Assembly (NCBI GenBank): GCA_902779355.1
Contig: CACZBF010000015.1
Coordinates: 1-64,000 of the forward strand
Length of the DNA: 64,000 nucleotides
Source of the DNA: an uncultured Lachnospiraceae bacterium
GTDB taxonomy: Bacteria > Bacillota > Clostridia > Lachnospirales > Lachnospiraceae
Direction of reading: 5' to 3'
The translations under genes were made by a program, and so were the position numbers. The notes beneath the pieces are model-generated. The model saw nothing but the letters and a program-made list of their open reading frames with translations, had not been told where the DNA came from and searched no databases. Shown in pieces: positions 21,510 through 53,552 of this stretch (position 1 is the first letter of the stretch; every line of letters starts with the position of its first letter).

Positions 21510-21878
21510 TCAGAGTTTTTTGCAAAGACCTTTCAGATATGCCTCGAGAAGCTTCCTGTCAGACTTCGAGAGGGTTCGATACATATAAATAACATCTTCT
21601 TCATCCTCGCTCAGCTGGATTCTGTAATCCACGGAGCGGGGATGTTCTTTTTCCCGGCCGGAATCTTCCCGGTTGATTTGATCGAAGAATTCTGAGAGTG
21701 TGATCCCGAATCCATGGCAGATCAGAGAAAGTGTGGGAATCGAGGGACAGGTCCCGCGGGAGAAAATATTATTCAGGCTGGAGTAGGGAAGACCGGACTC
21801 CTTGGCAAGCCTGTACAGAGACCAGTGTCTGTGATCGCAGATCTTTTTAATTTCGTTTATCACATCTTGTTCTATCAA
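21510..21878 (-). CDS. XRE-family helix-turn-helix regulator
   Basis: The protein is an XRE/Cro regulator: HTH from about WSLYRLAKESGLPYSSLNNI to SRGTCPSIPTLSLICHG, then an acidic C-terminal helix region of about 60 residues. No ATG exists in the frame. I chose the TTG at 21878, which lies shortly before the HTH and has GGTGAT upstream. The frame is open back to another TTG at 21959, but that would place the candidate operator inside the gene. It is divergent from the sortase-like operon and probably controls it through repeated TGAGTAATAT motifs in the region between. Confidence 0.75.
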   Translation of the reverse strand: MIEQDVINEIKKICDHRHWSLYRLAKESGLPYSSLNNIFSRGTCPSIPTLSLICHGFGITLSEFFDQINREDSGREKEHPRSVDYRIQLSEDEEDVIYMYRTLSKSDRKLLEAYLKGLCKKL

Positions 21879-21900
21879 AAAAATATCACCATTTTTCAAT

Positions 21901-21920
21901 TGAGTAATATGCGTATTACT
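21901..21920. promoter_or_regulatory. Inverted-repeat operator next to the XRE start
   Basis: AGTAATA (21903-21909) and TATTACT (21914-21920) form perfect 7-base arms around TGCG. The ten bases TGAGTAATAT at its left edge (21901-21910) recur exactly at 21992-22001 in the -10 region of the divergent promoter, so both are probably bound by the XRE protein. Confidence 0.6.
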
Positions 21921-21972
21921 ACTATTTGTAGCACAAACAAAAAGAAATGCTAGATGCAAAGTGAAAAGTATA

Positions 21973-22001
21973 TTGACAGAGACAACTCAAGTGAGTAATA
22001 T
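21973..22001 (+). promoter_or_regulatory. Promoter of the sortase-like/LCP operon, with operator
   Basis: TTGACA (21973-21978) and TAATAT (21996-22001) are 17 bases apart. The spacer holds ACTCA (21985-21989), AG, TGAGT (21992-21996), a perfect 5+5 inverted repeat. The -10 is part of a ten-base copy of the XRE-side motif. A repressor bound here would occlude the promoter. Confidence 0.7.
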
Positions 22002-22039: not shown

Positions 22040-22060
22040 TTTTTTTTGGGGGGGGGGGGG
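22040..22060 (+). repeat. Homopolymer pair T8-G13 in the operon leader
   Basis: Eight T (22040-22047) are followed by thirteen G (22048-22060). The tract lies about 40 bases after the -10 and 64 bases before the first start codon, so it is in the untranslated leader. Such tracts change length easily by strand slippage, and a leader position would alter mRNA structure, not reading frame. A sequencing artefact in tract length is possible. Confidence 0.75.
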
Positions 22061-22123: not shown

Positions 22124-22993
22124 ATGAATCAGGAAAAGAAACAATCAAAAAAAACCATATTGCTGCTTGTCGTGATCTGTCTGGCAGTGGTTGCGATCAT
22201 CCTTTGTGTGGTGTTGTTGCTGAAAAAAAAGCAACCCGCTTCCGATGCGGCTCCGCAGGCAATGACAGAACAGACTGCCGCGACGGAACAGGTGCAGACA
22301 ACCGAGATACCGGAGACGGAGGAGATGACGGATCCGGAGATCGAAGCATTGCTCAAGATGGGAATCGAGGTGCCCGAGAAGCAGCTTGATTGGGACGCGC
22401 TTCATGAAGAGAATCCGGATATCTATGCCTGGATTGTGGTGCCGGGGACGGACATTGATTATCCTGTGCTGCAGCACCCGACGGATGATGCCTATTATGT
22501 CAGCAACGATCTGGACGGAAATTCGGACTCATCCGGCTGTATCTATTCCGAAAGCCGCAGCCGGAAGGATTTTTCCGATTTTCATACCGTACTGTACGGG
22601 CAGAACCGTGAGGATCAGACGATGTTTTCCACGCTTCACAATTTTGAAGCCCCGGATTCGGTGGAGGGAGACCATTACATCTATGTTTATACGGAGGATG
22701 AGATTCTCGTTTATAAGATTTTTGCAGCCTATGAATTTCCGGCGGTGCATCTGCTGGCAAATTTCGATCTGACCAATGAATACGTCAGAGAGCAATATCT
22801 GAAGGAAGTATTTGCGGTGGACGAAGGGGACGTAGAAGTGGCAAATGTCCGTCATGACGTGGAAGTGACACCGGATGATCATATACTGACTCTTTCCACG
22901 CATGTGTCGGATCCTGACCGGGATGCGATGTACCGGTTTCTGGTGGTAGGCGTTCTGGTTTATCCGGAGGAGATGACGTCCGATGCTGGATGA
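22124..22993 (+). CDS. Class B sortase-like protein lacking catalytic Cys and His
   Basis: The 289-residue protein has a short basic N-terminus, one membrane helix (about residues 10-32), a Thr/Glu-rich stalk, and a class B sortase fold beginning at WDALHEENPDIYAWI. Sortases need His, Cys and Arg. Here the His region reads TVLYGQN (about 153-159) where active enzymes have YGHN, and the Cys region reads LTLSTH (about 252-257) where they have LSTC. The Arg is kept (YRFLVVG, about 270). It therefore looks catalytically dead but otherwise intact, and could bind a surface-protein signal without joining it. A TTG at 22115 is a possible earlier start. It overlaps the LCP gene by 11 bases. Confidence 0.8.
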   Translation: MNQEKKQSKKTILLLVVICLAVVAIILCVVLLLKKKQPASDAAPQAMTEQTAATEQVQTTEIPETEEMTDPEIEALLKMGIEVPEKQLDWDALHEENPDIYAWIVVPGTDIDYPVLQHPTDDAYYVSNDLDGNSDSSGCIYSESRSRKDFSDFHTVLYGQNREDQTMFSTLHNFEAPDSVEGDHYIYVYTEDEILVYKIFAAYEFPAVHLLANFDLTNEYVREQYLKEVFAVDEGDVEVANVRHDVEVTPDDHILTLSTHVSDPDRDAMYRFLVVGVLVYPEEMTSDAG

Positions 22994-24107
22994 GGAAATC
23001 ATAGTTGAAAAAAAGAAGCTGGGCTTCGGCAGAGTGACTGTTTTTACGATCATTGCCGGAATCTGCACGATATTGATTGTTATTGGGATCCTGCGTATTA
23101 CCGGACGAAATAGTATTAATAAGCCGATGGCAGTGACGGCAACGAGTGCCACGGCGGATGTCGTAGCGAATATGGGAGAGCCAAACGCTCCCGCGGTGGC
23201 AGATAATGTGATCACATACGGCGGGAAGGAATATGCCCTGAACGAAGACCTGATTACGATCCTTATCATGGGTATTGATGCGGAGACGCAGAAGGAGGTC
23301 GGCGGTCAGAGTTGGGAAGAGGAGGAAGGCAGTGCGCAGGCAGGCGGTCAGGCGGATGCATTATTCCTGGTTATGATGAATCCGCATGATAAAAATGTTT
23401 CCATACTTGCAATAGACCGGAATGCCATGGCCGATGTGGATGTTTTCGATAAAGAGGGCAACTATCAGGGGGTTCAGATCAAACAGATCGCGCTTCAGCA
23501 TGGGTATGGAGACGGGAAAGAACAGAGCTGTGAACGTCAGGTGAAGGCAGTATCCCGGATGCTGGGCGATATTCCGATCAATGCCTATATTGCCATCAGT
23601 ATGGATGCGATACCGGAACTGAACGATGCTGTCGGCGGAATCACGGTCGACGTGCTGGAGGACATCGTCTATCCGGAATACGATATGGATCTGCACCAGG
23701 GTGAGACCGTGAAGCTGGAGGGAGACAAAGCATACTGGTATGTGCGTCTCCGGCAGGAAGACGAGTTCGGATCCAATGAAATGCGTCTTCAGAGGCAGAA
23801 ACAGTATATGACCACCTTTGCAGCCGCGGTCAAGAATGAGGTTGCTTCCGATATCCGGGTGGCGGCAGACCTTTATCAGGTTTTGCAGAAATATATGGTT
23901 TCCAATATCGAGCTCAGTCAGTTTGTTTATCTTGCGACAGAGTATAAGAATTATGACTTTGATGTCAGCAATCTCTTCTCGCTGCCTGGTGAGACAGTGA
24001 TGGGCAATAATTACGAGGAGTTTTACATCGATGAAGATGCAGCGCGCGATTTGATCGTCAAGCTGTTTTACGAACCGCTGGAAAAGAAGCCGGAAACCGA
24101 ACAATAA
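22983..24107 (+). CDS. LytR-CpsA-Psr (LCP) family protein
   Basis: The 374-residue protein has an N-terminal membrane helix (about residues 18-40) and an extracellular LCP domain from about residue 92 (TILIMGIDAETQ), with QADALFLVMMNP, VSILAIDRNAM and the LNDAVGGITVDV segment. LCP enzymes attach polysaccharides from a polyprenyl carrier to peptidoglycan. The usual IPRD arginine motif reads AIDRN here, so the Arg is present but shifted in context. It is coupled to the sortase-like gene by overlap and may attach the polysaccharide made by the locus that starts 1 kb downstream. A decayed relative lies at 52.9-53.5 kb. Confidence 0.85.
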   Translation: MLDEEIIVEKKKLGFGRVTVFTIIAGICTILIVIGILRITGRNSINKPMAVTATSATADVVANMGEPNAPAVADNVITYGGKEYALNEDLITILIMGIDAETQKEVGGQSWEEEEGSAQAGGQADALFLVMMNPHDKNVSILAIDRNAMADVDVFDKEGNYQGVQIKQIALQHGYGDGKEQSCERQVKAVSRMLGDIPINAYIAISMDAIPELNDAVGGITVDVLEDIVYPEYDMDLHQGETVKLEGDKAYWYVRLRQEDEFGSNEMRLQRQKQYMTTFAAAVKNEVASDIRVAADLYQVLQKYMVSNIELSQFVYLATEYKNYDFDVSNLFSLPGETVMGNNYEEFYIDEDAARDLIVKLFYEPLEKKPETEQ

Positions 24108-24185: not shown

Positions 24186-24971
24186 ATGAAAAAAAGAGCT
24201 TTGGCAGTATTTATGGCGATTGCCGTGATGCTGCTTGGCACAACAACCGTGTATGCGGCAGGCAGCCCGACATCCGGCGGTACAGTAGAGCAACCGGAAG
24301 CAGGACAGGCAGCAAACACGGCAGTAACCGGTGTAGAGAGCCCGGCGCAGTATGCAGCCGAGACTTCGGCTGACGCAGGGTTCGCTACGAGCGCAGTTGG
24401 TGCAACCACAGTGCAGAGTGCAACAGTTGCAGCACAGAACCTTCTGCTGAATCACCTTGCTAGTGTAGGCGCAGCCCTTGGAAATTCGGGCATCAGCGCA
24501 GCTGCAGGACAGGCAGGCGCTACCGTGACCGCAGAAATGCTTTCTGTCATCAATGTGACACTCAACGGCGCAGCTAAGGGTGCTGACGGATTGTACGATG
24601 TTACCGTCCGTAACGGCAAGATTCATGCCGGCGACACCATCGCAGTCATGCACTTTGATGGCAGCTGGGGTCTTGTAGTTCCGACCGCAGTCGGCAACGG
24701 CTTTGTATCCTTTAAGGTTGCTAACTGCTCACCCTTCAGCATCGTCCGTTTGAACGGCGGTTCTGCAGGCGGCGCAGGCGCAATCGCAACGCTGAGCGTA
24801 CATGATGCACTGGAGCAGGCTGCTCTTGCAGCACAGGCAGCAGAGCGTCAGCAGATCGCTTACTACGCTACACTGTATGGCTGGAACAAGGATATCGTAG
24901 ATTTCCTGTTACTGGCAGCAGCACAGGGCCTGAATCCGCTTGGCGCACTTGGGCTTGTAGGCGCACCGTAA
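24186..24971 (+). CDS. Secreted Ala-rich protein of unknown function
   Basis: The 261-residue product has a clear Sec signal peptide (KKR, hydrophobic core, cleavage after VYAA at about residue 25). The mature protein is rich in Ala, Gly, Val and Thr: a low-complexity N-terminal third, a beta-type middle (about 110-205, with LYDVTVRNGKIHAGDTIAVM) and a helical C-terminus. There is no lipobox, LPxTG motif or late membrane helix, so it is probably released or held by partners. A strong site (AAGGAAAGGAGG) suggests high expression. It follows the LCP gene by 78 bases. I do not recognise a family. Confidence 0.7.
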   Translation: MKKRALAVFMAIAVMLLGTTTVYAAGSPTSGGTVEQPEAGQAANTAVTGVESPAQYAAETSADAGFATSAVGATTVQSATVAAQNLLLNHLASVGAALGNSGISAAAGQAGATVTAEMLSVINVTLNGAAKGADGLYDVTVRNGKIHAGDTIAVMHFDGSWGLVVPTAVGNGFVSFKVANCSPFSIVRLNGGSAGGAGAIATLSVHDALEQAALAAQAAERQQIAYYATLYGWNKDIVDFLLLAAAQGLNPLGALGLVGAP

Positions 24972-25137: not shown

Positions 25138-26283
25138 ATGAGAAAAGTCCTGTTTGTTACAACGATCAGTGGATTTCTGACACAATTTGAAAAGAACGAC
25201 GTCAAAATATTGCGTGAACTCGGATGCGAAATCCATTACGCGTCCGATTTTCAAAACCCCGTATATGAATACGACGAAGACGAACTTCAGAATATGCGGG
25301 TGATCACGCATCAGATCAGTGTAAAAAAAAGCCCGGCGAAGTTACGCGAGAATGCAAATGCGATCCGGGAACTGAAAAAGATTATAGATACGGAAAAAAT
25401 CGATCTGATCCATTGTCACAACCCGATGGGTGGTGTGACGGCACGCATGGCGGCACATCAAAGCAAGATGCGGCCTTACGTGGTTTATACGGCGCATGGA
25501 TTTCATTTTTATAAAGGTGCGCCGGTAAAAAACTGGCTGCTGTACTATACAGCCGAGCGGCTGATGGCAAATTATACGGATCGGATCATTACGATAAACA
25601 ACGAAGACCGGATACGGGCAGAACGTTTTCCGGTACGGGGCGTCACCCAGATCCACAGCGTGGGTGTGGATGAGCAAAGATTTCGACCTGTTGAAGAGTT
25701 ACGGGAGAGGAAACGAAAAGAACTTGGCATCCCTCAGGATGCCTTTCATATCGTCACTGCGGCAGAACTGAATGACAATAAGAACCAACGGACGGTGATC
25801 GAAGCAATTGATCGCATCGGATGTCCGGATATTTATTACAGCATCTGCGGGAAGGGACCGAACAGGGAAAGGCTGCAGAGGCTCATTGAGGAGAAAGGTC
25901 TGACAGAACGGGTGCGGCTGCTTGGCTACCGCACCGATATGGAAGAAGTCCTGCAGACAGCAGACTGCTTTGCCTTCCCCTCCAAAAGAGAAGGACTCGG
26001 GGTGGCAGCCGTGGAGGCGCTGCTTTGCGGCGTTCCGCTCATTGCAGCGGACAACCGCGGGACACGGGAATATGCGGTGAACGGCAAAAATGCGTTCGTC
26101 TGCGGAGCGGATCATCCGGAGGAGTTTGCGGCAGCAATCGAGAAGCTGAGAACGGATCCCAGGATGCGCCAACAGATGAGTGAAGCCTGCAGAGATTCGG
26201 CGATGGAGTTTACACTTCCGGCGGTGGATTGTACCATGCGGAAGTTTTATGAAAATGTATTCAAGGATATGGGAGCGGGATGA
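25138..26283 (+). CDS. GT4-family glycosyltransferase, first gene of the polysaccharide locus
   Basis: The 381-residue GT-B enzyme begins MRKVLFVTTISGFLTQFEKN and has LIHCHNPMGGVTARMAA (about residues 88-104), YTAHGFHFYKGAP, the donor loop GKGPNRERL and the C-terminal ExxE-type region FPSKREGLGVAAVEALLCG (about 280-299). It resembles EpsD/CapM-like enzymes that add early sugars to a lipid-linked chain on the inner membrane face. There is no good ribosome site at this ATG and a stop lies 60 bases upstream in frame, so this is the first possible ATG start. The next gene overlaps by four bases. Confidence 0.85.
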   Translation: MRKVLFVTTISGFLTQFEKNDVKILRELGCEIHYASDFQNPVYEYDEDELQNMRVITHQISVKKSPAKLRENANAIRELKKIIDTEKIDLIHCHNPMGGVTARMAAHQSKMRPYVVYTAHGFHFYKGAPVKNWLLYYTAERLMANYTDRIITINNEDRIRAERFPVRGVTQIHSVGVDEQRFRPVEELRERKRKELGIPQDAFHIVTAAELNDNKNQRTVIEAIDRIGCPDIYYSICGKGPNRERLQRLIEEKGLTERVRLLGYRTDMEEVLQTADCFAFPSKREGLGVAAVEALLCGVPLIAADNRGTREYAVNGKNAFVCGADHPEEFAAAIEKLRTDPRMRQQMSEACRDSAMEFTLPAVDCTMRKFYENVFKDMGAG

Positions 26284-35153: not shown

Positions 35154-36175
35154 TGTGGCGTGACAGGAAGATACAAACTGCCATCATAGGAATGGGCAGG
35201 ATGGGGAAAACCAGATATGAAGCCATGGAACGCCATGGAGGGTATAAGGTCATATCTGTCTGCGATTCAAATCCGGATTATCTGAAAGGATATCAGGAAG
35301 ACACTTTTCAGGAGTGGAGAGAATGCATAGATCGCTCGGAGATAGATGCCGTTTTTGTGTGTACGTATAATGTGACCATACCGGATATTGTCTGTTATGC
35401 ACTGGAAAGAGGATTGTCAGTATTTTCAGAGAAACCTCCAGGCAGAAATCTGGATGATACTCTGCGCATGAAAAAGGCTTATGAAGGCAGTTCAGGAACA
35501 GTACTGAAATATGGGTTTAATCACAGATATCATAACTCTGTCATAGAGGCAAAGGCTCTCGTTGATTCCGGGATTTTGGGAAAAATCGTATGTGCACGCG
35601 GAGTGTATGGAAAAGCGGGTACGCCGGAATTTCAGACAGAGTGGAGAAATGACAGGGAAATTTCCGGCGGAGGAATCATGCTGGATCAGGGCATCCATAT
35701 GCTGGATCTGATGTATTACTTTTGTGGAGAATTTACAGACATACAGAGTACGGTGGATCAGCTTGTATGGAAAGATATGCCTACGGAGGATTCTGCATTT
35801 TCAATTCTCCGAACAGCGGATGGAAAGGTGGCATCGCTGCATTCCAGCGCGATCCAGTGGAGGCATAAGTTCAGTTTGGATCTGATATGTTCAGAGGGAG
35901 TGGCATCGCTGAATGGACTAATCACCTCGACAAACAGCTACGGAGAGGAAAAGCTCAGCTATTACCATAAGGATCTGGAGCAGAAGACGGGCGGACTTGG
36001 CAAGCCGATAGAACACACGATGTGCTTTGATGAAGACAATTCTTGGGATTATGAGATGGCAGAGTTCTATGATGCCGTTGTATATGGGAAACCTGTCAGA
36101 CAGGGGGCCATTGAGGACGCGGTAAATCTGATGCGTATGATAGAGGGAATCTACCATACAAATCAGGCAATATAG
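35153..36175 (+). CDS. Gfo/Idh/MocA family oxidoreductase
   Basis: The 340-residue enzyme has an N-terminal Rossmann fold (TAIIGMGRMGKTRYEAMERH) and the family motif FSEKPPGRNLDDT (about residues 90-102) with its catalytic Lys, then a substrate domain with GGGIMLDQGIHMLDLMYYF. It would oxidise or reduce a sugar nucleotide or cyclitol hydroxyl. It follows the methyltransferase with a one-base overlap and ends this part of the locus, just before element A2. Confidence 0.85.
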   Translation: MWRDRKIQTAIIGMGRMGKTRYEAMERHGGYKVISVCDSNPDYLKGYQEDTFQEWRECIDRSEIDAVFVCTYNVTIPDIVCYALERGLSVFSEKPPGRNLDDTLRMKKAYEGSSGTVLKYGFNHRYHNSVIEAKALVDSGILGKIVCARGVYGKAGTPEFQTEWRNDREISGGGIMLDQGIHMLDLMYYFCGEFTDIQSTVDQLVWKDMPTEDSAFSILRTADGKVASLHSSAIQWRHKFSLDLICSEGVASLNGLITSTNSYGEEKLSYYHKDLEQKTGGLGKPIEHTMCFDEDNSWDYEMAEFYDAVVYGKPVRQGAIEDAVNLMRMIEGIYHTNQAI

Positions 36176-36185
36176 ATACCGGAGA

Positions 36186-36219
36186 ACATTGAAAACTTCA
36201 TACTTTACATCGGGGGAAA
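36186..36219. repeat. Element A2, left boundary of cassette 2
   Basis: This is a diverged copy of the A element with the same core TTCATACTTTACA. Read on the minus strand it shares 19 consecutive bases (CCCGATGTAAAGTATGAAG) with the B2 hairpin at the other end of this cassette. It lies 10 bases after the oxidoreductase stop. Confidence 0.75.
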
Positions 36220-36290
36220 TGCACTGTATATTGAGAACAGTAGAGTTCTGCTAAAATGGATATGAAAGAAGTCTTGCGGAGGGAATAATC

Positions 36291-36662
36291 ATGTGCAGAA
36301 TGGCTACGATCATTATCAACGGCAGAACGATAAAGGTTGCCGATATCAAGGCGCGTTTCATCAAAAATATTGCAGATGCTGCGGCAGAGTGTGACTATAT
36401 AGACAAGGTTGTGCTGTTTGGGTCAAGCATTACGGAAAGAAGCACGAAGGATTCGGATATAGATATTGCTGTATTCGGTAGGCAATACAAATCAAAAGCA
36501 CTTATTTCCGCGAAGTATAAACGATTCACACATAAGGTGCGAAATTATGAAGATGGCACACAGGAATATGACATATTGTATTTTAAGTCAGATGGTAAGT
36601 ATCGCCCTATTATCCTGAACCGTATAGATGATGGGGAGGTGCTTTATGAGCGAAAACAATAA
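36291..36662 (+). CDS. MntA-like nucleotidyltransferase (antitoxin type)
   Basis: The 123-residue protein is a minimal nucleotidyltransferase: LFGSSITERSTKDSDIDIAV (about residues 43-62) carries the GS and the DxD metal site. MNT proteins pair with HEPN ribonuclease toxins and inactivate them by adding AMP. The HEPN partner follows with a 17-base overlap but carries a stop codon, so this antitoxin may now be an orphan. The start has CGGAGGG seven bases upstream; a second ATG lies three codons later. Confidence 0.83.
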   Translation: MCRMATIIINGRTIKVADIKARFIKNIADAAAECDYIDKVVLFGSSITERSTKDSDIDIAVFGRQYKSKALISAKYKRFTHKVRNYEDGTQEYDILYFKSDGKYRPIILNRIDDGEVLYERKQ

Positions 36663-37086
36663 GGCTGCAAGAATGGAACTGTCGCTGGCACAAATAGAGG
36701 CGGATTTGGTTGTTGCGTATCTCTCCATTCAGCGATCACAAACTGAAAAGAAGAAAATGTCTAAGTATATTCGCGGACAGGCGGGGTTTCATCTGCAACA
36801 AGCAGCGGAAAAGCTTATTAAATATCAGATGTACCGGTCAGGAAAGAAACTTGATTATGTAAAGGTATACTGACACAGTATCAGTAAGCTGATAGAGTAT
36901 GCAGATTCGCTGAATATCAATGTAATCATTCCAGATTATGTAAGGAAAAATGATGAAATCATTACAGATTGGGAAGCAGAGGGACGATATGATATGCATA
37001 TTGTTGTAAGATTGGACACCTTGAAGAAAGCGTACAATGAGATCAATAACTGGTATCAGGAATTGAAAAAGGTTTATAAGAAATAA
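36646..37086 (+). pseudogene. HEPN-domain toxin interrupted by an in-frame stop
   Basis: The first 75 codons read as a HEPN protein (GFHLQQAAEKLIKYQMYRSG). A TGA follows at 36871-36873, and the same frame continues for 70 codons as HSISKLIEYADSLNINVIIP and further to a TAA at 37084-37086. The stop falls just before the conserved His of the HEPN ribonuclease site, so the short product should lack activity. A single base change would restore the frame, so the loss may be recent, or the call at this base may be wrong. Confidence 0.75.
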
Positions 37087-37128
37087 GAACAGGTTTAGGA
37101 AAAATCATAATACAAAGTAGGAGATGGC

Positions 37129-37175
37129 AAACTCCCGATGTAAAGTATGAAGAATGCTTTACGCCGGGAGTTTTT
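37129..37175 (+). terminator. Element B2, terminator-shaped hairpin at the right edge of cassette 2
   Basis: AAACTCCCG pairs perfectly with CGGGAGTTT, then a 2x2 internal loop and a second helix GTAAAG/CTTTAC, with five T (37171-37175). It lies between the HEPN remnant and the ribosome site of the next glycosyltransferase gene. It is the inverted counterpart of A2. Confidence 0.78.
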
Positions 37176-37196
37176 GTTATTAGACAGGAGGACGAT

Positions 37197-40100
37197 ATGT
37201 TAGACCCGAAAAGAACAGCAATTTTATTCACTGCAAATACGCCACATTTGGCGCATGCTAATCTTATGATTGATTCTTTAAGAGACCCTCAAAAGGGAAA
37301 TTTTAAAGGCGATTTATGGGTTATTTCTACAGGATTGTCAAATAGAGCGAAGAATTATTGTGATTCAAACAATATTAATTTTTTTATTAGCGAAATGAGG
37401 GAACTTAATCATTGGGAAGGTAGGGAGATAATTGCAAGATCTCAACCAGAATACCAAAATGCATTAAAGAATTGTAGCGATGAAATTGCGCTTAAAAAGT
37501 CTTTTGAATCATATAGAAATAAAAGAATGTCAAAACTAATACTATTAAATTGGGTCAAACGATTCGGAGACAAATATGATTTTATAGCCCTAGGAGATAA
37601 TGACTTATACTTTCAAAAAGATGTTTATTATTTATTCAATGAAGCGTATACCAATGCTCCTGATAGGATATCATACAAACAAGAGGAAAACGAAATTGTA
37701 GTTGATAGCTGGATTTGGAAAAAGGATTTCCATTATAGCTTACTTCAAACAACATATGGTCTAGATTTTGGGAGACACGAAATTAATATTGGGTTTATTC
37801 TAGGTAAGCCATATGCATTGTATAGGTTGTTTATGACCGTTTATAAAGAGTTTCTTAATAAAAAAAATATAGATTTGTTTAGTAAGTATAATTGGCACGA
37901 TCAAGACTTGGTTAGGCTCTGTAGAGCTAAAAATCCAGATTGGTTTGATCACCTTTCGGAGGATGATATTATACATCTATGTAATGGTGGAGATAGTGTG
38001 ATAGAGGAAAATGAGATTATGACGTTTACCCATAAGAGGACTGGAAGGAAACCGTATATAATCCATTTTGCAGGAGGAGCATGGAAAAACTATGCAAGCG
38101 TAAAAACTACGTTTAACGTTGATCCGGGTATTTTTTTCTATAGGAATGAATCTTTAGAAGATTTTGACGAAATAAGAAAGAATAGTGCTGTAAACTTATT
38201 CAATTTGGATAACCCGGCTTTTTTTTCTGAAGGGAATATAAAAAGCAGAAAAAAAAATAGAAGAAAATGGATGAAAGCTTATAATAATGGGAAAAAGAAT
38301 GTTCTATTGATAGGATGGTTGGATATTCCCACGCATAAGAGCTTTATTGATTATTTGATGCCATTTATTCAATCTGAACTTTTTAATTTAGCAATCATAA
38401 ATGGGAATATTAAAGAAGAATATAGAGATGATGTTGTATGGGAAGATATGCCAAAGTGTTTATCAAGTTTGACGAGCAGAATTTGGGATGTTAATTTTGC
38501 GCGGACTTTTGGATATAAGGATGCTCAGATTCCGGAATGGATTGTTGAGAATGCTATTAAATCATTAATGGATGAGTATAGATGCCCTGAACGAAATGCC
38601 AGAGCAATTACTACAATTCTCTTTTCTTTTTATAATGAAACGCTAGATTTCTATAAGCCAGATGTGGTTCTTTATTTATCAGTTACAAATCCGCTTGGAA
38701 AGTTAATGGAGCGCTTGTGCCGGTGGAAGAAAATACCAATAGCTGACTTGGAATGGGGAGTATTGCCAGGAACTATGACATTTGAATTTAGTGGTCATAT
38801 GGCTGAAAGCTGGGTTGGAGATAATAAGGAATTTTTCAATCAGTTGCCTATAGATAAGAACGATTTGGTATTGGCTGAAAAATATATAGAAATAGCTTGT
38901 GATGAATCTTTGAATAGAAATAAGATAACTCATATAGAGTATGATACAGAGTTTTATGTGGATCTAAAATCCCAAAAAAAGATCATTCTGTACTTGGAGT
39001 CTAACAATGCTGCTAGCGGCAATACAGATATAGATGAAGAGAGAAGAAAAAAGCATTCTCCTTTGTTTTATGATGATAAAGATGCATACAAGTATATTGC
39101 GAATCTATGTGAAAAGAATGATGACTGGCATATCTTATATAAGACACATCCGATTTCAATAACCAGAGGATTAGATGTTGAGATAAATGAAGATAACACA
39201 ACTGTGATTTGGTCGGGTAGCATATATGATTACCTGCCATATGCAGATGTTGCCATGACTTTGGTGTCTCAAAGCGCATATCTAGCCTTGTTACGTGGCA
39301 TTCCCACAGTAATGCTTGGGGTTAATCAGATAAATGGAAGTGGGGCGGTTTATATCCCTGAGTCAAAGAAGGATATAGAGAAAATCGTAAATAGTGCTCT
39401 TGAAAATGGATTTGATAGTAATAAAAAGAGCTGTTTCATAGCACATATTGCGAGACTACTGAAATACTATCTTTTTTCTTATGAACCCAAGATTGGGTAT
39501 AGAAACATTTCGAACATGGCGGATGCTTTTCTATCCATAATAAATGGATGCCAAATGAATTATTATTGTTTTGAAAGACAGTCATATGAACTAATGGCTT
39601 GTGATAAAGACAATGCTAAAAATAAGGCGCTGCCAATCGTCTCGGTTATTATACCAGTACATAATTCTGAATTATTTTTATCTGAAGCAATAGCGTCTAT
39701 AGTTAATCAATCGTTGAAAGAAATTGAAGTGATTTGCGTTAATAACGGTTCTGTGGATGATTCCCAGGATATTTTAGAGTATTGGGCATCAAAGGATGAC
39801 AGAATAAGAATAGAATCATGTGTGGAATCTATAACGGCCGGAGTTCCAAGAAATATTGGTCTAAAACTAGCCAAAGGAAAGTATGTCTATTTAATGGATT
39901 CGGATGATATTTTGGAAAGAGAGGGTCTTGAAAAATTACTAAAAGTTGCCGAAGACAATAACTCAGATTTGGTCTATACATTTTTTAAACAAGTGGAAGC
40001 GAAAATCTCCAATGATATGCCTAGGCCAAGATTTTATAACTATAAGCACTATCTGCCTGATGCGTATTCCTATAAATTGGAGCGAGACCATTATCGTTTT

Positions 40101-40745
40101 TTCATACAATATCCATTTCCATGGGGGAAATTGATTTCACGAGACCTTCTTAATCAAGAAGAGTTGTTTTTTGACGAAGGAGTCCGCTGCTTTGAGGATA
40201 ATCCACATAATTTAAAAACATTATTTAGAGCACATAATCCATATGTTTTAAACGACAATATATATCATTTGCGCATGCATAATGATTCGACAACTCAACA
40301 CGAAAACCCGCGAATTGTCGGAATGATAGATGCTGTAATGGCTATGAATAGAATTTTTCATAATAATAATAATTATTATGAGTATCAGAAATATTATGTT
40401 CCCTACAAAGCACACTTGTTGACATGGGCATTAAAGAATGTTCCGGATTCATGTAAAGATGACTATGTCGAGGGAATAAAGGACTGCTTCAACAATAGTG
40501 ATTACAACTATCTTATATCTGATGAGTCATGGGAGTTGTTTAATATTCCATCAGAACTAGCTGTTTCCTTTTTGACCGATATGAAAGTAACAAATAATGA
40601 TGACTTGTTGAGAAAATATGGTTATAGACCACCGAAATATGAAACGATTAGCAAGGCTCATTTATATGCAATCAAGATATGCGAAAAGCTTCATATTATC
40701 AATGGCGCTATCAAAATAAAAAGGCTTATATGGAGAAAAAAATGA
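37197..40745 (+). CDS. Three-domain capsule glycosyltransferase
   Basis: The 1182-residue protein appears to hold three transfer domains. Residues 1 to about 340 look like a glycosyltransferase with FIALGDNDLYFQKD as a possible DxD-type site. Residues about 365-790 resemble capsule-synthesis GT-B domains, with ILYKTHPISI (about 647) and TLVSQSAYLALLRGIP (about 689), and are related to the separate protein at 45.0-46.5 kb. Residues about 810-1050 are a GT2 domain: VSVIIPVHNSELFLSEAI and YLMDSDDIL. Such multi-domain enzymes can build a repeat by themselves. The gene is strongly A+T-rich compared with genes left of 36 kb. A good site (AGGAGGACG) precedes the ATG. Confidence 0.8.
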   Translation: MLDPKRTAILFTANTPHLAHANLMIDSLRDPQKGNFKGDLWVISTGLSNRAKNYCDSNNINFFISEMRELNHWEGREIIARSQPEYQNALKNCSDEIALKKSFESYRNKRMSKLILLNWVKRFGDKYDFIALGDNDLYFQKDVYYLFNEAYTNAPDRISYKQEENEIVVDSWIWKKDFHYSLLQTTYGLDFGRHEINIGFILGKPYALYRLFMTVYKEFLNKKNIDLFSKYNWHDQDLVRLCRAKNPDWFDHLSEDDIIHLCNGGDSVIEENEIMTFTHKRTGRKPYIIHFAGGAWKNYASVKTTFNVDPGIFFYRNESLEDFDEIRKNSAVNLFNLDNPAFFSEGNIKSRKKNRRKWMKAYNNGKKNVLLIGWLDIPTHKSFIDYLMPFIQSELFNLAIINGNIKEEYRDDVVWEDMPKCLSSLTSRIWDVNFARTFGYKDAQIPEWIVENAIKSLMDEYRCPERNARAITTILFSFYNETLDFYKPDVVLYLSVTNPLGKLMERLCRWKKIPIADLEWGVLPGTMTFEFSGHMAESWVGDNKEFFNQLPIDKNDLVLAEKYIEIACDESLNRNKITHIEYDTEFYVDLKSQKKIILYLESNNAASGNTDIDEERRKKHSPLFYDDKDAYKYIANLCEKNDDWHILYKTHPISITRGLDVEINEDNTTVIWSGSIYDYLPYADVAMTLVSQSAYLALLRGIPTVMLGVNQINGSGAVYIPESKKDIEKIVNSALENGFDSNKKSCFIAHIARLLKYYLFSYEPKIGYRNISNMADAFLSIINGCQMNYYCFERQSYELMACDKDNAKNKALPIVSVIIPVHNSELFLSEAIASIVNQSLKEIEVICVNNGSVDDSQDILEYWASKDDRIRIESCVESITAGVPRNIGLKLAKGKYVYLMDSDDILEREGLEKLLKVAEDNNSDLVYTFFKQVEAKISNDMPRPRFYNYKHYLPDAYSYKLERDHYRFFIQYPFPWGKLISRDLLNQEELFFDEGVRCFEDNPHNLKTLFRAHNPYVLNDNIYHLRMHNDSTTQHENPRIVGMIDAVMAMNRIFHNNNNYYEYQKYYVPYKAHLLTWALKNVPDSCKDDYVEGIKDCFNNSDYNYLISDESWELFNIPSELAVSFLTDMKVTNNDDLLRKYGYRPPKYETISKAHLYAIKICEKLHIINGAIKIKRLIWRKK

Positions 40746-41500
40746 TTCTTTTGATTATGGCTGCGGGGAAATCCACTCGTTTTAATGGCTATCCGAAGGC
40801 GTTCTGTTCTTTGGGGAAAGAGATTAATGTTAACAATACTATAGAAAAGTCATCTAAGTATGTTGAAAAGGTGTATGTTGGTATAAACAAGGAAACCTTT
40901 GAGTATACAAACCAGTTTGATGTAAGGGGAGAGTTAATATCTATTGTTACTGGGCAAGGTGATGCGGATTCTATATATAAATGTGTAATCGAAATAAAGA
41001 GAAGAAATCCAGAGTATCATAGGGATTTGTTAATTTGTTGGGGCGACGCAGTTTTTTTTGAAGAGGTGCCATTTAAATACGCAACGAATGATGATGAAAT
41101 GGATGAGAATTACTTTATTTCTGCAGTATGTTCATGGGATAAAAAGCCATACGCGTGGTTTGACTATGATAACACAGGAATAACCAAAGTGCACTTCTAT
41201 AATGATTCAAGTGAGGTGGTTGAATATGGCATGCATGATCAGTCATTATTTAGGACTAATATAGATATTATATATGAGTATTTAAAAATATATCGTGAAA
41301 AGAATGGGTTAACTGATAAGAACATAAATATTTACAATCCTAATATAAAGGAAATCAAACTGCTAGAGATGATGGCTTTTTATCATAATCTTAACGAATA
41401 TAAGAATGCGGGAATACTACAGATACCGTCTGGTAGTGTGATGTCTTTTAATTCTGTTGAAGAACTTGAGAATATCAAGAAATGTTTAAGGGAAGGTTGA
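40742..41500 (+). CDS. NTP-transferase family nucleotidyltransferase
   Basis: The 252-residue protein starts MILLIMAAGKSTRFNGYPKA, the nucleotide-binding signature of the NTP-transferase fold (IspD, MobA, GlmU and CofC share it), followed by a metal Asp in LLICWGDAVFF. It should join an NTP to a phosphorylated substrate. Two earlier in-frame ATGs exist inside the previous gene; I chose 40742, which forms an ATGA overlap and has GGAG upstream. It sits just before the CofD-HAD fusion gene, which makes a CofC-like activating role attractive. Its sugar or acid substrate cannot be read from sequence. Confidence 0.72.
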   Translation: MILLIMAAGKSTRFNGYPKAFCSLGKEINVNNTIEKSSKYVEKVYVGINKETFEYTNQFDVRGELISIVTGQGDADSIYKCVIEIKRRNPEYHRDLLICWGDAVFFEEVPFKYATNDDEMDENYFISAVCSWDKKPYAWFDYDNTGITKVHFYNDSSEVVEYGMHDQSLFRTNIDIIYEYLKIYREKNGLTDKNINIYNPNIKEIKLLEMMAFYHNLNEYKNAGILQIPSGSVMSFNSVEELENIKKCLREG

Positions 41501-41504
41501 TACA

Positions 41505-43316
41505 GTGTACAGAATAGTTATTTTTGGTGGAGGAAGCGGAACAGAAGAATTACAAAAAGGTTTTTATCAAGTCTGTAATAAGGATACCATTAGGATAGAT
41601 GTAATCATTAATGCATATGACAATGGCTTGTCAACAGGACTATGTAGGAAGTGCTTTGACAATCTAATTCTTGGACCAAGTGATTTGAGAAAAAACCATC
41701 TTATTAGCCTTGAAAACGAGTATTCGAAAGAACTCAATGTGAGCGGAAGTAGAGAACGAGATTTATATGAACTATTTAGCGCTCGTATATCTGCTAGTAG
41801 CAAAGAGGAGTTTATTTCAATTGCAAAAGAGCAAATTGATAGATGCATAGGTTTATCTGTTAAAGATGCATTTTTCTTATATGAGTTGTTGGATTATTTC
41901 TTTTATGCAGTAGAAGAAAGGAAAGGAAAGAATTTTCTCAATTCATTTGATGATTTTTCTTTAGGTAATGTTTTCTATACGGCATGTGCTGTCCAAAATG
42001 ATTATTCATTAGATAAAGCGGGAAGAATTCTTTCTGCTTTTTTGGGTATTGAGGACAGAGTACATTTAATATCAAATGTAAGCCTCTTGCTTCATGCCGA
42101 AACAGATTCTGGTATGATTATTGATGATGAGGGAACGATTGTAGAATGGAATAATAGTACGGACAAAATAAAACGAGTTTTCCTGACAAGGGATGGACAG
42201 GAATATATTCCGAAAGTCGGAGAAAACTGCGAGGATTATGGCAATTCGATTAGAAGTGTTATAGAAAATGCAGATATCATTATACTTGGTTCGGGTACGC
42301 AGTGGTCATCATTGATACCAACCTATATGCATATAGGCTTGCAGAGTATCATTACCAATTCAAATGCAAAAAAATATATGATTATGAATCTCGTCCAGGA
42401 TGGGGACATGTATGGTGTGGGAGGAAATGATATTCTTTCTATCGTTAGTTACTATTTGGATTTAAATGATTTTGCCATCATGTTGAGCAGCAATTCATCA
42501 AGTTGCTTTAAGGAATTGCATACTTCTAATAGAGTTATAGAAGGGAATTTTAGCGTATTAGGTGAGAAAAAGCATAAAGGAAGAGATTTGGTTGTAGGAA
42601 TATTAAAAGATTATTTTAGAGATATATTAGGGTTTAACCACTATGTGTTTGATTTTGATGGGACTCTGTGGGACAAGCATGCTTGTACAAAAGAGAAGGA
42701 TATAGCAATTGAAAATATTGATAATTATGAGGGTATTGTGCTGTCCGGGAATAGGGATAATTATTTGATGGAGATATTTCAAAAAAACGGAAGAACAAAA
42801 AAAAGAAAACAAATCTATTCTGATTATGGAAACGTTTATTTTGATACGTTACGATATGAATCAAAACTAATAGATCGCAATAGTTGCATATCGAGTAGTA
42901 TATATAAAAAATTACAAGGGGATAAAGAGTATATTGGTAAAATGAAATTGAGGGGATATGGCAGTATTATTACTCTAAAGCCTTTTATCAATCGGGCGAT
43001 TGAAGTAAAAAGGATAGACGAGTTTTTGCGCGAGTTTAAGGGACTATACGAAGTATATTTGGCTGGGGACACCTCTATAGATATTATAAAAAAAGGATAT
43101 GGAAAAGGGGAAACATTACAGACTATTATTCTGAAGGAGGGATGGGAGAAAAAGGAAGTTTTGTTTATTGGAAACGAAGTGACCGAGGGAAATGATAAAT
43201 CAATAAGGGATAAAGGATTTGAGACCTTTCAAGTAAGAGATATTCAAGAAACAAATGTCGTGATTAGAATGATTAATCTGGTTAATCAACGGAATATTTC
43301 TAAAGCCAAACAGTAA
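41505..43316 (+). CDS. CofD/YvcK-like domain fused to a HAD phosphatase
   Basis: The 603-residue protein has an N-terminal CofD/YvcK-type domain (about residues 1-350): FGGGSGTEELQKGF, NAYDNGLSTG, and ADIIILGSGTQWSSLIPTY, equivalent to the family GPGS loop. Residues about 375-590 are a HAD phosphatase of the phosphomannomutase/Cof type, with DFDGTLWD as nucleophile motif and GNEVTEGND as motif IV. CofD moves a phospholactate-like group from a guanosine carrier to an alcohol. YvcK members instead sense UDP-sugars. The fusion in a capsule locus beside a nucleotidyltransferase suggests a phosphodiester decoration. The start is GTG (41505) behind GGAAGG. Confidence 0.75.
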   Translation: MYRIVIFGGGSGTEELQKGFYQVCNKDTIRIDVIINAYDNGLSTGLCRKCFDNLILGPSDLRKNHLISLENEYSKELNVSGSRERDLYELFSARISASSKEEFISIAKEQIDRCIGLSVKDAFFLYELLDYFFYAVEERKGKNFLNSFDDFSLGNVFYTACAVQNDYSLDKAGRILSAFLGIEDRVHLISNVSLLLHAETDSGMIIDDEGTIVEWNNSTDKIKRVFLTRDGQEYIPKVGENCEDYGNSIRSVIENADIIILGSGTQWSSLIPTYMHIGLQSIITNSNAKKYMIMNLVQDGDMYGVGGNDILSIVSYYLDLNDFAIMLSSNSSSCFKELHTSNRVIEGNFSVLGEKKHKGRDLVVGILKDYFRDILGFNHYVFDFDGTLWDKHACTKEKDIAIENIDNYEGIVLSGNRDNYLMEIFQKNGRTKKRKQIYSDYGNVYFDTLRYESKLIDRNSCISSSIYKKLQGDKEYIGKMKLRGYGSIITLKPFINRAIEVKRIDEFLREFKGLYEVYLAGDTSIDIIKKGYGKGETLQTIILKEGWEKKEVLFIGNEVTEGNDKSIRDKGFETFQVRDIQETNVVIRMINLVNQRNISKAKQ

Positions 43317-43360
43317 GAACCAGAGTTGGTTGAAACGGATAAAAAACTATAGGGAGAAAT

Positions 43361-43771
43361 ATGAGGTTTAAAAACTATAATAACAGGCGTATTTTTGACC
43401 ATGAGGGTAATAGGATAGGGTTTATTTCAAATTCGGCTGAGATACGTGGTTTGAAAGACAATGTTAAAGTGGGAATACCACATATGATATGTGATGATGC
43501 ATATGTAGAGGCTGGTGAAATAGGAAATAATACATATATTGGAAGGAAAACACTAATTAGAAATATAATAAGGATTGGCAATAATTCTTTCATCTCTGAT
43601 GGAGTTGTCATAGGAAACGATATTATTAAGCTTCAAAGACATACTATAGGGGTATCTACGGAAGATGTTTATATAAGAAACTATATTCATGAAGCAAAAA
43701 TTTTTATTGAAAAAGTGTATTTTCAAGGTGAGAAACTTGGAGATGGATGGAATGAGATGAAATTTCTTTGA
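43361..43771 (+). CDS. Short left-handed beta-helix protein
   Basis: The 136-residue protein has hexapeptide-like turns (IGNNTYIGRKTLIRNIIRIG, about residues 68-87, then NNSFISDGVVIGNDI), the pattern of left-handed beta-helix acyltransferases. It is much shorter than a normal sugar acetyltransferase, so it may be a truncated enzyme, a small trimeric one or a structural partner. It is A+T-rich like its neighbours. The start has AGGGAGAAAT upstream. Confidence 0.6.
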   Translation: MRFKNYNNRRIFDHEGNRIGFISNSAEIRGLKDNVKVGIPHMICDDAYVEAGEIGNNTYIGRKTLIRNIIRIGNNSFISDGVVIGNDIIKLQRHTIGVSTEDVYIRNYIHEAKIFIEKVYFQGEKLGDGWNEMKFL

Positions 43772-43836
43772 TCGCTTTTGGTCGTACTGTACCGATAATT
43801 GTTGATGGTAAGACATAAACTGTGGAGATAGAAAGA

Positions 43837-44304
43837 ATGACAGTTGATAGAATAGCCAATTTGCCCTATTACCTGCCAGAAAAACAGAAAGACAACATAA
43901 TGTGTTTTATTAATTCCGTATCGTCTGGCTTAGGGAATGGAAACTATAATATTTGCAGTGAAAATGTTTACGCCAAAATAATGTCATACGCTACTAAAAA
44001 AGCAGAAAAATGTGTGGTTGAGGCGCATAGTTATCATATGGATATACAATTTTCCCTGCAGGGCGCTGAAGGGATAGACATATTCGCACCGGATCAGCTA
44101 CGTGCAGTACAAGAATATGACGTTGATCAGGATGTGCAGCTATATGATGTGGTAGAGGATCATCCAATTGCCTCTGTTTTGAATAGAGAGGGATATTTCT
44201 GCCTAATACCCGCAGGAGTACCCCATAGACCAATGAAGGCGGTTACCAATGAAGGCTGGGTCAAAAAGTGTGTGATCAAAATTCTGAGTCTGGAGGGAGT
44301 ATGA
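43837..44304 (+). CDS. YhcH/YjgK/YiaL family cupin
   Basis: The 155-residue protein belongs to the YhcH/EbgC/TabA cupin family: EAHSYHMDIQFSLQGAEGID (about residues 66-85) and FCLIPAGVPHRPM (about 126-138) hold the metal-binding His and Glu residues. YhcH is linked with sialic-acid metabolism and may be an anomerase or epimerase. I start at 43837 (GGAG nine bases upstream); the frame is open to a GTG at 43822. It overlaps the NeuA-like gene by four bases, which fits a shared ulosonic-acid-like substrate. Confidence 0.83.
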   Translation: MTVDRIANLPYYLPEKQKDNIMCFINSVSSGLGNGNYNICSENVYAKIMSYATKKAEKCVVEAHSYHMDIQFSLQGAEGIDIFAPDQLRAVQEYDVDQDVQLYDVVEDHPIASVLNREGYFCLIPAGVPHRPMKAVTNEGWVKKCVIKILSLEGV

Positions 44305-44996
44305 AAAAAATAATCATTATGATCCCGGCAAGGCTGGGGTCTAAGCGGATACCAAAGAAAAATATTAGATATATGCAGGGAAAGCCACTGATACAGTATC
44401 CGATAGACATAGCCAAATCCGATTCAAGGGATATGGAAATATGGGTAAATACAGAGGATGAACGACTTGGGACGATAGTCACGGATATGGGAGCGAACTT
44501 TCACAGGAGGCCAAAGGAATTGGCTGGTGACACAGCCACAAATCGGGATTTCACCTACGAGTTTCTGCGGATGCATCCCTGTGACTATGTGGTGATGCTC
44601 AATACCACATCCCCGCTTCTTAGACAGGAAACTTTTGGACAATTTATCGATAAGATCATAGATTCGGATGCTGATACGATACTGTCGGTTGTGACGGAAA
44701 AAGAGGAGACATTTTATCAGGGAGAGCCGTTAAATTTTTCGTTGAATGAGAAGATCAACAGTCAGTTTCTGCCGTCCACACAAAAGATTGTTTGGGCGAT
44801 GACAGGGTGGAAACGGGATACGTTTATGAGATTGCAGGAACAGGGAGAGAACCCGGTGTTTGGTGGGAAGATAGTGCTGTTTGAAGTGCCGAAAGATGAG
44901 GCGTGCGATTTGGATACGGAGGAGGATTGGAAGATTGCAGAAGGCATTTTACAGTCCCGTTCAGAAACGCATACTCCAAAGTATTTGGAGCTGTGA
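44301..44996 (+). CDS. NeuA-like cytidylyltransferase
   Basis: The 231-residue protein is of the acylneuraminate/Kdo cytidylyltransferase type: IIMIPARLGSKRIPKKNIRY at the N-terminus (CTP-binding) and VVMLNTTSPLLRQETF (about residues 98-113). It activates a 2-keto sugar acid or related sugar as a CMP derivative. NeuB and NeuC are not in the window, so the substrate may not be sialic acid. An AGTATG start with GGAGG is clear and overlaps the YhcH stop. Confidence 0.83.
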   Translation: MKKIIIMIPARLGSKRIPKKNIRYMQGKPLIQYPIDIAKSDSRDMEIWVNTEDERLGTIVTDMGANFHRRPKELAGDTATNRDFTYEFLRMHPCDYVVMLNTTSPLLRQETFGQFIDKIIDSDADTILSVVTEKEETFYQGEPLNFSLNEKINSQFLPSTQKIVWAMTGWKRDTFMRLQEQGENPVFGGKIVLFEVPKDEACDLDTEEDWKIAEGILQSRSETHTPKYLEL

Positions 44997-46507
44997 CAAA
45001 TAAACAGAATTTTAATATGAATGAAAACGATAACTCCAAATGGGAAAGCATCAGTAGACCGCGCCAGGAACTCATAAAGCTTGGAAACAGGCTGGGGATT
45101 ACAGACAAGCTGGTTGTCTTGAAGCGGCTGATCCTGAATCAGGGTGCTGTTCGCGAAAACACCGTTAGAATTGATGAACTATTCCAAAAGCCTCTGGATG
45201 AGTGGAAAGAGCAGGTCAGAGAAGCGAAAAAAAAGCATAAGCCGTACACTCTTGTGGTGGGGGATGTTGTTGGTTTTGACAAGGGGATCTGTCATTATTT
45301 GAATACCTTGTCTGAAAGCATACATGGCACGGATTTTTTATTGCTGTCGGAAGCAGAGAATCAGAATGGAAAGATTGATTTCAAAACAATCATCGTCCCG
45401 GACTTTCTTATCAGAAGGCGTAAAGCCCCTTCTCCAAATGTGATTGCCACCCATGAAATACTTGTCTTTTTGGAACGCCGAACCGCATTGAAGTGGTGCG
45501 TTTCAAATTATTTGGGACAGAACAAGGATCTGACTTTGGACGATGCCGTAGTGTGGACATATTATTCGTATCATGTGGCGGAATATTTACTTGATCAACT
45601 GAAACCACAACAGGCGATCCTCTGGAATGTGTTTTATGACTTTCATCATATCATGGATTGGCTCTGCAGGAAGAAAGGGATCCCAACTATATATATGGAG
45701 TTCGGATCGATTCCGGGTACATTTTCTCTTGAAAAAAACGGTCAAATGGGGCGGAGTTATCCGGGAATTCATTCGGCGGAGTTTGCAAATCTTCCAGTCT
45801 CAAAAACAGATCTTTCAAAAGCGGAGGAAGTCCTGAGGTATCTCAGGGAAACGCGTCTGAATCGAAATAGTCAGCCACAAAACGATAATATAAATGTGGT
45901 GAAAGGTCGACTGGAAGTCGGAAGACCGACGATATTATTTGCAGGATGCAATGACTATGAAAGCGGAATCTATCCATATACGAGAGAGTCACGGCAGCAA
46001 TCCCCAGTGTTTAAAAGCAGCGATGAGGCAGTACAGTTTTTGTCTGAATTGGCGAGAAAGCATCGTTGGAATTTGATATACAAGCCGCATCCCATAGTAG
46101 TGTATCTGGAACGCGTTAAGCCATGCGATGAGGGAATCATCCGTATAGATGATGTTGACATTAATGAGTTGATTGATATTTCAGATGTAATCGTTACCAT
46201 TGTGTCGCAGGTATCCTATATCAGCTTAATCAGGGAAAAGCCCATATGTATGCTGGGATATACACAACTGAGAGGGAAGGGATGTACATACGAAGCCTTT
46301 TCCTTGCGTGATGTGGAAACGGCGCTGGAAAAAGCAGTAGAAGATGGCTTTACATCCGATCAACAGGTAAAGTTTCGGAAACATACGGCACAGATGCTGA
46401 AATACAATCTGTTTGATGATTTGACCGACAAAGGCAGGAAATTTGGGCAATCTATGGAGAGAGCAGTTCATTTTTTAGAAGACGCATTGAGCGTTCATGG
46501 AAAGTAG
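44993..46507 (+). CDS. Capsule-synthesis GT-B-like transferase
   Basis: The roughly 504-residue protein is a single-domain relative of the central part of the 37.2 kb protein. Shared marks are GIPTIYMEFGSIPGTFSLEK, NLIYKPHPIVVYLERVKP and VTIVSQVSYISLIREKPICM (about residue 400). It resembles capsule polysaccharide transferases of the Kdo-transferase/GT-B kind. The start is uncertain: a GTG at 44993 overlaps the NeuA stop, and an ATG at 45017 lacks a ribosome site. Base use is less A+T-rich than between 37 and 44 kb. Confidence 0.72.
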   Translation: MTNKQNFNMNENDNSKWESISRPRQELIKLGNRLGITDKLVVLKRLILNQGAVRENTVRIDELFQKPLDEWKEQVREAKKKHKPYTLVVGDVVGFDKGICHYLNTLSESIHGTDFLLLSEAENQNGKIDFKTIIVPDFLIRRRKAPSPNVIATHEILVFLERRTALKWCVSNYLGQNKDLTLDDAVVWTYYSYHVAEYLLDQLKPQQAILWNVFYDFHHIMDWLCRKKGIPTIYMEFGSIPGTFSLEKNGQMGRSYPGIHSAEFANLPVSKTDLSKAEEVLRYLRETRLNRNSQPQNDNINVVKGRLEVGRPTILFAGCNDYESGIYPYTRESRQQSPVFKSSDEAVQFLSELARKHRWNLIYKPHPIVVYLERVKPCDEGIIRIDDVDINELIDISDVIVTIVSQVSYISLIREKPICMLGYTQLRGKGCTYEAFSLRDVETALEKAVEDGFTSDQQVKFRKHTAQMLKYNLFDDLTDKGRKFGQSMERAVHFLEDALSVHGK

Positions 46508-52925: not shown

Positions 52926-53552
52926 CGACACAAGTCTTATCGATACGATTCCGGGATCAAGACCTATCTTCTTCTTGGCATAGATAAAGATGAAAAGGTG
53001 AAGCCGGTGCCGGACGGCATTGACGGAGGACAGAGCGACGCGCTGTTTCTCCTGGTAGTGGATGAAAAGGAAGGGAAGTAGTCGCTGATAAAGATTCATC
53101 GGAACACCATGACAGAGGTGGAGGTTTATGACGAGGACGGAACAGACCTGGGTCCGCAGAAGATGTAAAAAAGTGCTTGACATTTGCACACAGTCACTTT
53201 AAATGGAGACGAAGCATATGCATATCTTCGGAAACGGGACACGTCAGAGTTTGACAGCGCCACCGGGCGTATGGAGCGTCAGGGAGAGTATCTGGAAGAA
53301 TTGATCCCGATGCTGCAGGGAATGGGGAAGTCCAAGGCGAACGAGATACTGAAAGAACTGGATGATTATATTGTTTCAGACGTCGTAAATCTGGATCTTC
53401 TGGAGGAAACGGAGGGAATGGAATTTTAACGGGGATCAGATTTATGAAGTTCCCGGAGAAACGGTACTAAATGGGGGTTTTGAGGAATATCACGTTGACG
53501 AGGATGCACTATATGACCTGATTCTTGATGTTTTTCATGACGAGACGACATA
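52926..53552 (+). pseudogene. Decayed LCP-family gene
   Basis: Fragments in order match an LCP protein and resemble the intact one at 23.0 kb: TYLLLGIDKDEKVKP and GQSDALFLLVVDEKEG then a TAG (about 53080); LIKIHRNTMTEVEVYDEDGT then a TAA; VTLNGDEAYAYLRKRDTSEF with a deletion before it; and YEVPGETVLNGGFEEYHVDE to a TAA at about 53552. The middle of the domain is missing and at least three stops or frameshifts break it. No product is expected. Confidence 0.8.

Follow-up and report, generated by a model that had tools for sequence, protein, structure and literature searches.

The locus and its genes

The window analysed here, a 64,000-nucleotide stretch (positions 1 to 64,000, forward strand) of contig CACZBF010000015.1 from an uncultured gut Lachnospiraceae bacterium, carries a sortase gene that is followed directly by a gene for an LCP (LytR-CpsA-Psr) glycopolymer transferase. 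The genes and features of this region are as follows.

21510-21959, minus strand: divergent HTH (HTH_3) regulator
21973-22001, plus strand: sigma-70-like promoter ahead of the operon, TTGACA-17-TAATAT, by consensus match only
22048-22060, plus strand: run of 13 G in the leader, 63 bases upstream of the ATG
22124-22993, plus strand: class B sortase pseudoenzyme gene, 289 aa, with an N-terminal transmembrane helix at residues ~9-35 and a sortase domain at ~88-282
22983-24107, plus strand: LCP glycopolymer transferase, overlapping the end of the sortase gene by 11 nt
24186-24971, plus strand: secreted partner protein, whose homologues end in (S/A)P(K/Q)TG, a transmembrane segment and K/R, while the window protein does not
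24756-24968, plus strand: unrelated 71-residue C-terminal tail of the partner, in place of the sorting signal
25138-26283, plus strand: GT4 glycosyltransferase, found in the same place in the orthologous loci L008 and L010
26280-27227, plus strand: GT2 glycosyltransferase, likewise in the same place in L008 and L010

The order sortase, LCP gene, secreted protein is common to loci L003, L004, L005, L007, L008, L010 and L016, which makes the window gene a derived counterpart, in synteny, of genes for active enzymes. The LCP partner retains 41-63% identity across the orthologs, and the rate of the window sortase relative to the LCP falls within the range of the intact orthologs. A sortase gene adjoining an LCP gene inside a polysaccharide locus, as in the window, is also what was published for SrtB4 of Mediterraneibacter gnavus (PMC13121745). 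The genus mates G001-G003 are without this LCP and partner; thus, the locus is dispensable at the genus level.

The 13-G tract lies between the promoter-like site and the sortase start. It is preceded by 8 T and is the sole run of at least 10 G or C in the 2.97-Mb genome assembly, and no comparable tract was found upstream in the 12 related loci checked. Judged by its letters and position, it may possibly serve slipped-strand switching (phase variation) of the operon, or it may be a sequencing artefact. Further along the window, positions 52932-53547 hold a degraded LCP gene in three fragments with a stop, the pieces lying in LCP query order. A low-GC block (34-42%, in a window of 50-54% GC) at 36000-48000 carries glycosyltransferase genes and is likely to be an acquired variable polysaccharide cassette.

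The sortase fold and its active site

As the earlier note had claimed, the sortase gene is coupled to the LCP gene (through the 11-nt overlap) and its frame of 289 codons at 22124-22993 is open, with no stop and no frameshift inside. By fold and descent the product is a class B sortase. It matches the PF04203 profile at 34.9 bits (cut-off 26.6), and its AlphaFold (AF2) model, made with a 70-sequence alignment (mean pLDDT 88.6), is an SrtB beta-barrel whose top PDB match in Foldseek is the S. aureus SrtB-substrate complex 4lfd (E 5.9e-16). Its TIGR03064 score of 116 bits is under the equivalog cut-off of 153.75. A Cys-His-Arg site defines the sortases. The residues of interest in and around it are these.

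22499-22501, plus strand: Val126, a position that is Leu in 190 of 193 sequences
22559-22561, plus strand: Ser146, a position that is Asn in 174 of 193 sequences
22601-22603, plus strand: Gln160 (CAG), at the catalytic His position, motif YGQN
22610-22612, plus strand: Glu163, common only to the window sortase and a second pseudo-sortase, L177
22901-22903, plus strand: His260 (CAT), at the catalytic Cys position, motif TLSTH, then a loop extended by ~2 residues
22934-22936, plus strand: Arg271 (CGG), the conserved catalytic/oxyanion Arg, kept

The Cys of TLxTC is therefore His260 and the His of YGHN is Gln160, with the Arg retained as Arg271. In the model, Q160 comes directly after strand 154-159, H260 is the end of strand 254-260, and R271 stands at the start of strand 270-280. 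This layout is canonical, since it follows the same order as C. difficile SrtB, in which His and Cys are at the ends of beta-4 and beta-7 and Arg is at the beta-8 start (PMC5118464). Alignments and model together thus uphold the original reading of a class B sortase pseudoenzyme with Cys and His both replaced and Arg kept.

The same data bear on whether the alignment is misleading and the real Cys and His are at other places in the sequence, a possibility raised in the earlier note. The domain does contain Cys139, but the column of this residue is in GCIY, a segment where active orthologs also have Cys or Val, and the predicted strands put 160, 260 and 271 at the canonical places. A displaced Cys/His pair was looked for in the window sortase by alignment and predicted strand positions; none was found and the candidate was rejected, which leaves an alignment artefact extremely unlikely.

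The window sortase keeps 45 of the 50 columns conserved at 85% or more in the 70-sequence alignment, and its deviations are at 126, at 146 and at or adjoining the catalytic pair. The spacing from 126 to the His column is 34 residues, as from Leu96 to His130 in S. aureus SrtB, and by this spacing, rather than by structural superposition, we take position 126 to be the equivalent of Leu96. Leu96 of S. aureus SrtB is a substrate contact. Going from TGY to CAT requires two base changes and from CAY to CAG a third, and three base changes in two codons make chance or sequencing error unlikely. The assembly is admittedly a draft of 44 contigs, and the unusual 13-G run lies just upstream, but beyond these three separate changes the cleft has changed further, the partner has changed to match, and a second genome presents the case independently, so that we regard sequencing or assembly error as very improbable.

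From these residues we predict, with little doubt, that transpeptidase chemistry has been lost and the enzyme is dead. As read from its sequence, the window protein is predicted to be an extracellular pseudoenzyme tethered to the membrane, and its ancestor to have been an active SrtB of this capsule-type operon. With the known class B sortases (S. aureus SrtB 4LFD, C. difficile SrtB 4UX7/5GYJ; TIGR03064, PF04203) it shares the fold, the N-terminal membrane helix, the Arg, the strand order and most core residues; unlike them, it is without the catalytic His and Cys, its substrate-contact Leu is changed, and its partner has no cognate sorting signal. The C226A laboratory mutant of C. difficile SrtB (PMC4371152) is likewise a sortase fold without the nucleophile, but it is engineered and keeps its His.

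Such replacements are rare among relatives. H160, C260 and R271 are present in 69 of 69 relatives in the 70-sequence alignment. In a Lachnospiraceae-centred set of 196 distinct SrtB ORFs, drawn from genome contigs and Lachnospiraceae genomes, 194 have both H and C at the catalytic columns (192 of these have Arg as well, and two have a non-Arg residue in its column), and the two with neither are the window gene and L177 in genome G253; no sequence compared exceeded about 60% identity to the window sortase. A degenerate DNA pattern for D-x-x-x-T-L-S-T-H, used as a search for LSTH sortases, found one sortase (that of G253) in 396 family genomes and, in the 351 genomes of a class draw, the window gene only, the further matches being non-sortases. 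The window's own genome has one other detected sortase (L001 1492-2523, contig C29), with HGHN and LSTC intact. A search of open-licence papers for pseudo-, inactive or degenerate sortases yielded no natural class B pseudo-sortase.

The partner protein and a second pseudo-sortase

Where the third gene of a close ortholog is complete, the partner always ends in a sorting signal (e.g. SPKTG, SPQTG), a hydrophobic stretch and K/R. SPKTG is cleaved by C. difficile SrtB and is not cleaved by its C226A mutant (PMC4371152). No relic of such a signal was found in the window partner in six frames. A cognate signal for the window sortase was found neither in the partner nor within about 10 kb, and a codon search of the genome for C-terminal anchor proteins of the S/T-PKTG type found none; the Gram_pos_anchor model had no match above its cut-off in this genome. 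The suggestion that the protein binds sorting signals near the LCP enzyme is therefore unlikely. Since 18 of 52 intact sortase loci also have no nearby sorting signal by our detector, which missed at least one real signal (L239), a sortase without a signal nearby is no rarity.

No convincing homologue of the tail that replaces the signal was found in the window or the fetched loci. The tail (24756-24968) is weakly like the segment leading into the LCP domain (Y-x-x-x-Y-x-x-N-x-D-I-x-x-x-L); this likeness (7.9 bits, best of 2000 shuffles) was found post hoc and is not used as evidence. The fold of the partner has no significant PDB match; its domain at 24186-24755 gives weak, non-significant matches to GAIN domains of adhesion receptors and to the NLRP1-DPP9 complex (E 0.02 and worse).

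The second case is L177, with motifs YGPN and LSTH and its Arg kept. Its locus in G253 comprises CpsB/CapC, two tyrosine-kinase-like genes, a VanZ-LCP gene, the pseudo-sortase and a homologous secreted partner. This partner (L238 10315-10992) ends in TEVAP-stop-TG, an APxTG motif with a stop at x. A paralogous locus of the same genome (L239) has a YGHN/LSTC sortase and a partner ending in APQTG, a transmembrane segment and KK. Like the window sortase, L177 has lost both catalytic residues, has His at the Cys position, E163 and a changed L126, and stands beside an LCP gene and a partner without a usable signal; unlike it, L177 has Pro at the His position, its LCP is fused to VanZ and lies upstream, and it belongs to a separate clade. 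Indeed, in the tree the two sit in separate clades, the closest members of each being intact, whether or not the active-site columns are included, and the two losses are thus independent. On this evidence, read from sequence, the paired loss of catalysis and partner sorting signal arose independently at least twice, and the loss of the signal and the loss of catalysis are very probably linked.

Eighteen columns are conserved at a level of at least 95%. The window sortase departs from them only at 126, 160 and 260; L177 departs at the same three and also at 113 and 167. E163 and H260 are each common to both dead copies and occur in none of the other 191 of the 193 sequences. Sharing of at least two private residues was found in 5 of 16,440 pairs in a test limited to pairs below 50% identity.

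Selection, competing explanations and a proposed role

In a two-ratio codon model, run with a FastTree tree, omega on the window branch is ~0.03 and omega=1 is rejected (2dlnL 37.6); on the L177 branch omega=1 is rejected as well (2dlnL 14.5). The marks of a pseudogene are therefore absent from the sortase gene, with its open frame and with neutrality rejected over the whole branch, although two serious limits apply: saturation at synonymous sites (branch t above 10), and branches that also span time as an active enzyme, so that these tests do not isolate purifying selection after inactivation. When neutral evolution was simulated, the reading frame remained free of stops in 24% of runs after 0.05 substitutions per site and in 6.5% after 0.1; thus a gene that has been neutral only briefly will often still be open. 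The earlier note had counted it against its own proposal if relatives all had His and Cys and this were a lone decaying copy. Almost all relatives do have both, but the copy is not alone, given L177, and neutral decay does not fit the codon models over the branch.

These results leave room for a recent relic, in which the partner lost its signal first, the sortase became useless, and the gene has been drifting without yet acquiring a stop. We consider this a serious possibility, nearly as likely as the reading that we favour. In both cases the partner has no signal left, the motif of the G253 protein being interrupted by a stop, the simulated frames survive in the proportions just given, and the substitutions sit where use as an enzyme would have constrained them. 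Set against this are the 45 of 50 conserved columns that are kept, with the deviations near the catalytic positions plus 126 and 146; the change from Cys to His, which is two hits in one codon and happened twice; E163 and H260 in both dead copies; the intact LCP overlap and fold; and a rate relative to the LCP inside the range of intact orthologs. The same recurrence of His at the Cys position with Glu163, in two independent cases, could be imagined to reflect a new active or metal site built on His260, perhaps with Glu163. The earlier note had raised a new chemistry with His; direct support for it is lacking, and the recurring His remains notable. Since His160 was replaced by unlike residues (Gln, Pro), we consider such a site improbable, and we know of no sortase-fold enzyme that works by His at the Cys position with Glu163.

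The explanation that we favour, to which we give about an even chance, is that the protein is still kept for a non-catalytic part in capsule/LCP assembly. The bacterium would have abandoned covalent anchoring of the partner, leaving the active site free to change, while the folded sortase would have stayed on in a second role at the LCP transferase that involves no catalysis. Sitting in the membrane and facing outward beside the LCP, the protein would act by binding without transpeptidation, and may serve as a scaffold or binding platform for the partner or the LCP while capsule polymer is being attached. The dispensability of the locus among G001-G003 and the 18 of 52 intact loci without a detected signal speak against such a role. 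Outside support for it comes from a described system: M. gnavus needs SrtB4, encoded next to an LCP gene in a capsule cluster, to present its capsule, as a clean deletion and its complementation established; the paper gives no mechanism (PMC13121745). By description, SrtB4 is like the window protein a class B sortase of a Lachnospiraceae species whose gene adjoins an LCP gene in a capsule-type locus; unlike the window protein, it is treated in that paper as an active sortase enzyme, and it may act via an anchored substrate.

The M. gnavus case raises the question of how a protein-anchoring enzyme helps a polysaccharide to reach the surface. Two independent natural knock-outs of catalysis, each with loss of the partner signal, make it testable whether catalysis or the folded protein is needed. 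The paired losses hint at a task of capsule-locus sortases for which catalysis is not required. Tentatively, sortases of LCP/capsule loci might share a conserved non-catalytic role in capsule attachment, and the pseudo-sortases with His at the Cys position might be repeatedly evolved separation-of-function forms that retain this role alone.
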